Made by a program: the position numbers and the translations under genes | In this document: piece after piece, positions 5,312 to 6,729 of the stretch | Layout: each line of letters opens with the position of its first letter | Numbering within the stretch: position 1 is the stretch's first letter | From: Frankiales bacterium | Lineage (GTDB): Bacteria; Actinomycetota; Actinomycetes; Mycobacteriales; SCTD01 | Assembly: GCA_025465135.1 (NCBI GenBank) | Contig: JAODNA010000116.1 | Span: 1 to 47,092 of the forward strand | DNA length: 47,092 nucleotides | Reading direction: 5' to 3' | The notes under the pieces: generated by a model | Told to the model about the DNA's origin: nothing | The model's database searches: none | The model's input: only the letters and a program-made list of their open reading frames with translations

Positions 5312-6010
5312 CTACTTGCCGGGCACCACACAGGACGGGGCGCCGGCGACGTAGTCCTTGCCGCCGGACGCGGTGTCCGCGTAGTACAGCGCGCCTTCGA
5401 GGATGGCTCCCCCACCGAAGGCCCCGGCCTTGTCCGGGATGGCCACCTCGGGGCCGGCGTTTGCGGTCAGCGCGGTGAGCTTGGTGCCGGGCTTGAGGGC
5501 GGACTCCGCGGCGAACAGGTCGCGCGGGGCCGAGATCCGCACCTCGCTCTTGGCGGTGTCGAAGATCCCCGTGACGCCAGGCCCGTAGAGCGAGTTGACA
5601 CCTGTCGCGCTGTGGGCGGCGTCGAAGGTGATGGCGCCCGTCGGGTCGGAGTGCGCGGACAAGCTGAAGGTCGTGGTGTCGACGGTGAAGTAGACCGACC
5701 ACGTCATGCCGCTGGGAGCGCTGGACGACGTGGCGGCGAGCTTCTTGACCCGCACCACACCGGTGATGGTCTTGGCGTCGGACGCGACATCCGCGGACAC
5801 GATGTCCAGGGCGTCGTTGCTCGGGCCACCGCTCTGCGCGGGGACGGGGGAACCAGGGTCGATCCCGTTGCCGTCACCGGCTGCGTCGGTGAGCAGGTTG
5901 CACACCGGAGCCGGCGGCGCCGGCTTGGACGCGGCGCCGGCTGCGCCGGCAACAGCGACGGATGCGCAGACGAGGACCGCGACCGTGGGGCGCAGCAGGG
6001 ACAGTGACAT
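5312..6010 (-). CDS. Secreted protein of unknown function, paralogue A
   Basis: A 232-residue exported protein I do not recognise. Residues 1-27 are a signal peptide ending AGAAGAAS. The mature part has only two cysteines, C37 in [10 protein letters not shown] and C227 six residues from the end in SCVVPGK, suggesting one disulfide joining the two termini. In between is a beta-rich stretch with [19 protein letters not shown], like CBM9/DOMON-type beta-sandwich domains. It is clearly homologous to the next gene (6049-6729): same signal peptide start, same C37, same LDIVSADV block and same [10 protein letters not shown] end. The start has AGGAG in the context TCAGGAGCTCCC. It lies just upstream of rfbB on the same strand. 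Confidence 0.85.
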
Positions 6011-6048
6011 CGGGAGCTCCTGACGAGGGGGGCGGTTCGGGGGTTGAG

Positions 6049-6729
6049 CTACTTGCCGGGCACGACGCAGGACGGCGCGCCCACCGTGTAGCCCTTCGCG
6101 GAGGTCGCGACGTCGGCGAAGGACGACGACCCGGTCGGGGTGAGGCGAGCCGAGGTCTGGTCGAGCCCGGAGAAGGAGACCGGAGCACCGGCCTTCACGC
6201 CCTGGGCCGCGAACGTGGCGAGCGGGGCGCTGATGCGGATCTCGTTCTTCGCGAGGTCGAACACGCCGGTGGCGTCGGCGAGCTTGGTCGACAGGTTGGC
6301 CGTGATCGCACGCGTGCCGGCGACGAAGGTGTCCTTGGTGCCATCGGTCGTCGCCGAGAGGTACATGTTCTCGTCGCTCTCGCTGGCACTGGCGAACTGC
6401 ACGCGGAACGCCAGCCCACCAGGCGCGCTGGAAGCGCTCTTGGCGAGCTTGTCGACCCTGATCACCGCGGTGATGGTCTTCGCGTCGGCCGCGACATCCG
6501 CCGAGACGATGTCGAGCGCGGGCTCGGCCGGCCCGTAGGCGCTCTGGCCGGAGAGGTCGTGCGCGGTGTCCTGGTAGCGGAGCAGGAACGTGTCGGCCTT
6601 GGCGTCCTCGACGAGGTTGCAGACGGGCGGTGCCGCCGGCTTCTTGGGAGCCGCCGTGGCCGCACCACCGGCGACGGCAGACGCGCAGAGCAGCACCGCA
6701 ACGGCGGGGCGCAGCAGGGACACGGACAT
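6049..6729 (-). CDS. Secreted protein of unknown function, paralogue B
   Basis: 226 residues, tandem paralogue of the gene at 5312-6010. The start is ATG 6729 (MSVSLLRPAVAV), not the longer frame beginning at 6855, because a signal peptide begins here and AGGAG lies 5-9 bases upstream in the same TCAGGAGCTCC context as paralogue A. The mature protein again has just two cysteines, C37 and C221, at equivalent places. The block [19 protein letters not shown] is shared; the middle and the loop after CNLVEDAKAD differ more. No function is known to me. Position between rfbB and rfbA suggests a surface role in the envelope locus. Confidence 0.85.
   Translation of the reverse strand: MSVSLLRPAVAVLLCASAVAGGAATAAPKKPAAPPVCNLVEDAKADTFLLRYQDTAHDLSGQSAYGPAEPALDIVSADVAADAKTITAVIRVDKLAKSASSAPGGLAFRVQFASASESDENMYLSATTDGTKDTFVAGTRAITANLSTKLADATGVFDLAKNEIRISAPLATFAAQGVKAGAPVSFSGLDQTSARLTPTGSSSFADVATSAKGYTVGAPSCVVPGK

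Follow-up and report, generated by a model that had tools for sequence, protein, structure and literature searches.

The window, by which we mean the whole 47,092-nucleotide stretch of DNA analysed, is one contig of the draft genome of a Frankiales bacterium (G000; 86% complete). Its minus strand carries genes in the order rmlA, protC, famB, famA, rmlB, rmlD and amidase, and an LCP gene diverges from rmlA (Table 1). The rmlA, rmlB and rmlD products all score above the NCBIfam equivalog cut-offs, and the genome's two matches to the rmlC 3,5-epimerase family both lie outside this contig. The gaps between rmlA, protC, famB, famA and rmlB are, in that order, 66, 91, 38 and 23 nt, sizes that would be compatible with a single transcript from rmlA to rmlB; promoter and terminator scans found none. 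Open reading frames, Pfam and NCBIfam revealed no glycosyltransferase or oligosaccharyltransferase in the rmlA–rmlD interval of the window.

Table 1. Positions, in window coordinates, of the genes of the rml locus and of the cysteine codons discussed in the text
Feature	Position	Strand	Basis or remark
rmlA (long form), glucose-1-phosphate thymidylyltransferase	7514..8578	-	TIGR01208 rmlA_long, 478 bits
protC, exported-type protein, Cys 45 and 66	6821..7447	-	sequence family other than famA/famB
famB (P0002), exported-type paralogue, 226 aa, ATG start	6049..6729	-	homology to famA; AlphaFold model
famB Cys37 codon	6619..6621	-	sequence
famB Cys221 codon	6067..6069	-	sequence
famA (P0001), exported-type, predicted CBM9/DOMON-like protein, 232 aa, ATG start	5312..6010	-	ORF; AlphaFold model; structural matches
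famA Cys37 codon, N-terminal partner of proposed disulfide	5900..5902	-	column Cys in 70/73 domains
famA Cys227 codon, C-terminal partner of proposed disulfide	5330..5332	-	column Cys in 55/73; elsewhere near the end in others
rmlB, dTDP-glucose 4,6-dehydratase	4293..5288	-	TIGR01181, 457 bits
rmlD, dTDP-4-dehydrorhamnose reductase	3394..4299 as searched; likely GTG start 4296	-	TIGR01214, 296 bits
Amidase_2 wall amidase, after rmlD	1789..3342	-	PF01510, E 2.6e-13; weak FlgD_ig match below cut-off
LCP glycopolymer-peptidoglycan transferase, divergent from rmlA	8719..10302	+	PF03816, E 6.9e-49; TIGR00350

The paralogues famA and famB

A preliminary description of this DNA had reported two exported proteins between rmlB and rmlA, on the same strand, that share their signal peptide, Cys37, an LDIVSADV block, a C-terminal end and the context of the ribosome site. 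The sequence bears this out, with the refinement that protC, too, lies in the interval, between rmlA and famB. The two proteins are homologous (50% identity, E 8e-37), both have basic-hydrophobic N-termini that are Ala-rich at the end (judged by eye to be signal peptides), both contain the LDIVSADV block and the C-terminal end motif, and in both genes the stretch TCAGGAGCTCC precedes the ATG. Ser and Thr together make up 19% of each mature chain. The protC product has no match over cut-off in Pfam or NCBIfam; its single other match among 24 genomes of the same taxonomic family (E 0.001, 28%) is at the rml locus of genome G005, in divergent orientation.

Nucleotide identity between famA and famB is 74% over 35 aligned upstream bases, 71% over the signal codons and 54–79% in 60-base steps along the gene. 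A common 5' region copied as a segment was therefore rejected in favour of ordinary homology, since the upstream identity lies within the range of the gene, and gene conversion or recent tandem duplication was rejected because identity is fairly even along the pair. Against a recent duplication there is also the fact that the closest relative of famA is not famB but the second copy in genome G011, a grouping with support of 100/96 in tree 1 and 98/91 in tree 2.

Neither protein matches any Pfam or NCBIfam family over cut-off, single-sequence look-up and profile search found no PDB relative at a meaningful E-value, and a single-protein scan of the genome's contigs found no relative. When 20 family members were compared with Pfam, the best match of all was to LtfC (E 0.0077, in one member). 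The literature titles and abstract openings covered describe neither this family nor any exported protein encoded within an rml operon.

A terminal cysteine pair and the predicted fold

Cysteines stand at positions 15, 37 and 227 of famA and 15, 37 and 221 of famB, and because Cys15 lies within the presumed signal peptide (by eye), each mature chain has just two cysteines, one near each end, as had been described. A profile scan of the fetched loci, which represent a part of all search matches, gave 77 non-redundant domains, of which 73 are complete. Cysteines are present at both ends in 70 of the 73 (69 found by rule and one, L107, by eye), and the 69 rule-found domains contain none between the N-terminal and the first C-terminal cysteine; two of the proteins (L089 and L098) have one more beyond the latter. 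Both cysteines are missing in 2/73, one a divergent gene at the G002 locus (L075) and one with two internal cysteines instead (L108), and the C-terminal cysteine stands alone in 1/73, the broken second copy of G007, whose start lies outside that open frame. This rml-linked copy (L045, 5318-5932) has two stops in the matched frame; the neighbouring copy is intact. In many large exported-type proteins (e.g., L085, L086, L053 and L083), the second cysteine comes before the last strand motif (CPFVVG), an arrangement alternative to that in which it follows this motif (YVAGAPSC).

Joint presence or absence of both cysteines across wide divergence is what a structural disulfide predicts, and the isolated bridge residues assigned by DSSP are 36 and 226 in the famA model and 36 and 220 in the famB model, each immediately before a cysteine. 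The N-to-C disulfide that was proposed earlier thus gains support from evolution and from both models, and the first and last cysteines of the domain are probably bonded, closing the chain.

AlphaFold models, each built on 13 sequences, reached a pLDDT of 74.5 and a pTM of 0.74 for famA and 76.8 and 0.73 for famB. With VIA-align, the best matches of famA were the gamma subunit of ethylbenzene dehydrogenase (EBDH; 2ivf_C, Z 9.4, 160 residues, 4.3 Å), a putative carbohydrate-binding protein (4jpq_B, Z 9.0, 147 residues, 3.8 Å) and a CBM9 module (1i82_A, Z 8.1, 139 aligned, 4.2 Å), together covering residues 34–224; the matches below these three have Z 7.4 and less and are mostly antibody chains. 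For famB, 2ivf_C again stands first (Z 9.6, 167 residues, 4.3 Å), and the CBM9-like match is less separated: 4jpq_A (Z 7.8, 150 residues, 4.0 Å) lies among matches of Z 8.6–7.4 that include antibody chains at 8.6–7.8, while the absence of 1i82 from the 50 famB matches listed was not counted as evidence about the fold. Among the matches listed, alignment from residue 34 is limited to these CBM9/DOMON-like chains. In Foldseek the best famA match was 4jpq_A (E 1.1e-3, probability 1.00); there was none at E ≤ 0.001, an absence that was likewise not counted as evidence about the fold. The CBM9/DOMON-type beta-sandwich expected from the preliminary description is thus supported by prediction, a fold class that the models support well for famA and less cleanly for famB. 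At the level of sequence, no CBM9 or DOMON Pfam profile matched at E ≤ 1 in 20 members or at E ≤ 0.05 in eight multidomain proteins.

The strongest columns over the 73 domains are Cys37 (70), Asp42 (69), Asp46 (70), Asp69 (71), Asp151 (66) and Asp212 (72). CBM9 structures are reported to hold three calcium ions (PMC8280721), and the five near-invariant aspartates may form calcium sites. According to the same source, CBM9 binds sugar through Trp71/Trp175 or Tyr89/Trp191. Judged by the alignment columns of the 73 domains, such an aromatic clamp (Trp/Trp or Tyr/Trp) is not conserved: columns 104, 108 and 220 are mixtures of Tyr, Phe and Trp, no column is a conserved Trp, and Trp is altogether absent from 6 of 12 rml-linked copies, a set that excludes the broken G007 and partial G009 copies. 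The module CBM9.1 is likewise described as being without the clamp, its role being called unclear (PMC8280721). It looks as though the family has kept an apparent metal-and-disulfide scaffold without the known sugar clamp.

Because both models have 2ivf_C as their best structural match, one may ask whether famA and famB are heme or redox proteins, a role known from the EBDH gamma subunit and from some DOMON domains. In the 73 domains, however, Met, His and Lys each fail to reach 70% in any column, and beyond the first 40 residues compared, 6 of the 12 rml-linked copies have no Met and five no His, so that we regard such a role as highly improbable.

Family spread, rml linkage and history

A protein search found matches in 9 of the 24 genomes of the taxonomic family. 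Profile searches found them in 12 of 397 genomes of the order, all 12 within that taxonomic family, in 23 of 394 genomes of the class and in 14 of 396 of the phylum; G000 is included in each count. As the profile searches scored up to seven candidates in each genome, their copy numbers are lower bounds, with at least seven places in G000 itself. The domain occurs in two forms, as small single-domain proteins and as the C-terminal or a repeated domain of large exported-type proteins. Eight of the latter were scanned against Pfam: the domain is C-terminal in an exported S8 subtilase (L085) and in a protein with a pro-kumamolisin activation domain (L089), and it is also found in proteins whose BNR matches (L053, L087) do not reach the cut-off or whose Big_1 matches (L083 10488-12404, L006) narrowly miss it, and in others without a Pfam match (L083 3594-5903, L086). 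Some large proteins end, by eye, in a hydrophobic stretch and an Arg-rich tail.

Within the taxonomic family, all nine genomes with small copies (G000, G002, G004, G005, G006, G007, G009, G011 and G012; genus codes g1, g3 and g4) have a copy beside rmlB, in arrays of one to three. An LCP gene is close and divergent in the eight arrays whose contig reaches that far; the G009 contig ends in rmlA. Exported domain proteins seem to accumulate here: the rml arrays of G002 (L039, 8126-9118 on the minus strand and ~9780-10440 on the plus strand) and G006 (L030, ~7150-7830, minus strand) also contain DxxGD proteins of exported type that lack the usual N-terminal cysteine. A match to rmlB at E ≤ 1e-100 is present in 15 of the 24 genomes, six of them without an array: in G019 and G020 rmlA directly precedes rmlB, so that the array is dispensable for the rml genes, in G003 the LCP gene directly precedes rmlB, in G001 and G017 rmlD- and rmlA-like genes lie downstream of rmlB instead, and in G015 rmlB is at a contig edge. 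The nine genomes without such an rmlB have zero small copies, a raw count uncorrected for kinship or completeness. G010 has a large protein only.

Outside the taxonomic family, none of 20 class-level neighbourhoods, several of them shortened by contig ends, contains a match to rmlA, rmlB or rmlD. The link to rml genes raised earlier is thus partly supported: it holds within the taxonomic family (9/9) and was seen in none of these class-level neighbourhoods (0/20). Other recurrent neighbourhoods exist, so the members are not bound to envelope loci, but neither are they scattered at random. One clade of small copies divergently adjoins an acyl-CoA dehydrogenase gene (seven copies in five genomes of three taxonomic families: L036, L040, L049, L134 and L138; support 94/93 in tree 1 and 100/98 in tree 2), and in three or more genomes members lie, by eye, close to a permease run.

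These data bear on a reading in which the proteins are bystanders: secreted domain proteins of a generic kind, functionally unconnected with rhamnose, that came to lie between rmlA and rmlB in a single lineage. The size of the family, its several unrelated neighbourhoods, the array-free loci of G019, G020 and G003 and the fast divergence of the copies (below) all speak for it; their retention beside rmlB in all nine genomes of the taxonomic family with small copies, across three genus codes, and the zero raw count of small copies in that family's genomes without an rmlB match at E ≤ 1e-100 speak against it, and we consider it somewhat unlikely.

Two further copies, in genome G416 (L137, 6980-9823), directly follow a protein O-mannosyltransferase-like gene (E 7.5e-102, below the model cut-off), a neighbour that suggests possible glycosylation. 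Together with the Ser and Thr content of famA and famB, this would fit small S-layer-like or wall proteins that themselves receive a rhamnose-containing glycan, and S-layer glycosylation clusters are reported to contain rmlABCD, with an S-layer gene close by in two Geobacillus strains (PMC2943079). According to the same source, however, genes for S-layer proteins are monocistronic, with transcription separate from that of the cluster; here no glycosyltransferase or oligosaccharyltransferase is encoded between rmlA and rmlD in the window, and no S-layer domain was found in Pfam or NCBIfam at E ≤ 1. A role as glycan acceptors is, in our view, improbable.

The rml-linked copies do not descend from one origin of their own: this topology was rejected in tree 2 by the AU test (p 0.0046; 13 rml-linked rows versus 31 others), although the well-supported branches of trees 1 and 2, taken alone, are compatible with it. 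Tree 2 omits seven long or short rows and, apart from a few kept by name, the rows from frames of at least 600 aa; its 13 rml-linked rows include the truncated G007 copy and leave out the partial G009 copy. The three copies of G012 do not stay together: each joins a separate subgroup with sequences from another genus code, c1 with G004 and G007 (83/83 in tree 1, 82/64 in tree 2), c2 with G006 (100/89 and 93/92) and c3 with G005 and G007 (99/98 in tree 1, no resolution in tree 2). The position of the famB branch is poorly supported, its nearest neighbour by path being a G002 copy. Either an ancestral array of several types was lost differentially or members were recruited repeatedly.

Between G000 and G011, the proportion of non-synonymous differences is 0.36 for famA and 0.41 for famB (against the first G011 copy, taken as a pair with orthology assumed), compared with 0.024 for rmlA, 0.058 for rmlB, 0.075 for rmlD, 0.157 for LCP and 0.167 for the amidase; famA thus diverges at roughly double the rate of the LCP and amidase genes nearby. 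Only these raw proportions were used. The ratio dN/dS was dropped as a sign of diversifying selection, as synonymous change looks saturated in every gene, paralogues included (pS 0.34–0.47), and for the same reason selection and relaxed constraint are inseparable here. With the rml-linked copies falling into more than one clade and diverging quickly, the tandem pair is old. It is conceivable, if rather far-fetched, that such an old, reshuffled array of fast-diverging, disulfide-closed proteins is a variable coat that matches or guards a rhamnose polymer, e.g., against phages or predators; were this true, uncultured Actinobacteria would have in these arrays a diversifying surface locus of a new kind.

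Interpretation and relation to known systems

We tentatively favor a reading, to which we give a probability of roughly 45%, in which famA and famB are exported, single-domain, CBM9/DOMON-like envelope proteins, closed by a disulfide, that bind or coat a wall component made together with them. Each would be a non-catalytic, single beta-sandwich whose first and last cysteines bond after export, closing the sandwich, and whose five conserved aspartates probably hold calcium. The genes share a run with those for the dTDP-rhamnose enzymes and for a wall amidase and adjoin an LCP wall-polymer ligase, so that residence in the envelope appears most likely, and the proteins would there bind or coat the wall component being made at the same time. 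That this component is a rhamnose-containing wall polymer is a guess. In Gram-positive walls, LCP enzymes are described as attaching rhamnose polymers (PMC8327497); this lends the setting plausibility and no more. The rhamnoglycan binding raised in the preliminary description is possible; the clamp residues are missing, and the rml link was seen in one taxonomic family only.

More broadly, famA and famB probably represent a new sequence family within the CBM9/DOMON-like fold class, one of extracellular domains marked by an unusual pair of terminal cysteines, and are probably envelope proteins made alongside wall rhamnose. For a family without a Pfam or NCBIfam match, there is now a prediction of the fold class, a cysteine pair that defines it and a domain architecture, and attention is drawn to proteins whose production may accompany that of a wall rhamnose polymer.

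Among known systems, CBM9-2 of Thermotoga maritima Xyn10A (1i82) resembles famA in its predicted fold over residues 34–224 (Z 8.1) and in being extracellular, and the acidic positions of famA and famB could match its metal sites. Unlike CBM9, the two proteins have no sequence-profile match and no conserved Trp clamp, stand alone rather than on a glycosidase and carry the near-invariant cysteine pair. The DOMON-like heme protein that is the EBDH gamma subunit (2ivf_C) is the best structural match (Z 9.4 and 9.6), but identity is 7–8%, and famA and famB have no conserved candidates for heme ligands. BACUNI_03838 (4jpq; Z 9.0 for famA, 7.8 for famB) is also the best Foldseek match; identity is 11% and 9%, and carbohydrate binding is only "putative" according to its depositors. 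The Cellulosimicrobium dextranase CeDex2365 is described as having a DOMON-like ligand-binding domain at its C-terminus (PMC9691899), an arrangement on an exported actinobacterial enzyme that is like that of the proteases found here, although in this case the domain sits on a GH49 dextranase and the likeness is drawn from the description of that enzyme. Finally, the locus shares rmlA, rmlB and rmlD, with LCP and wall amidase genes nearby, with rml-containing S-layer and wall-polysaccharide clusters; it differs from them in the absence of a glycosyltransferase between rmlA and rmlD and in the presence of exported-type domain proteins between rmlA and rmlB.
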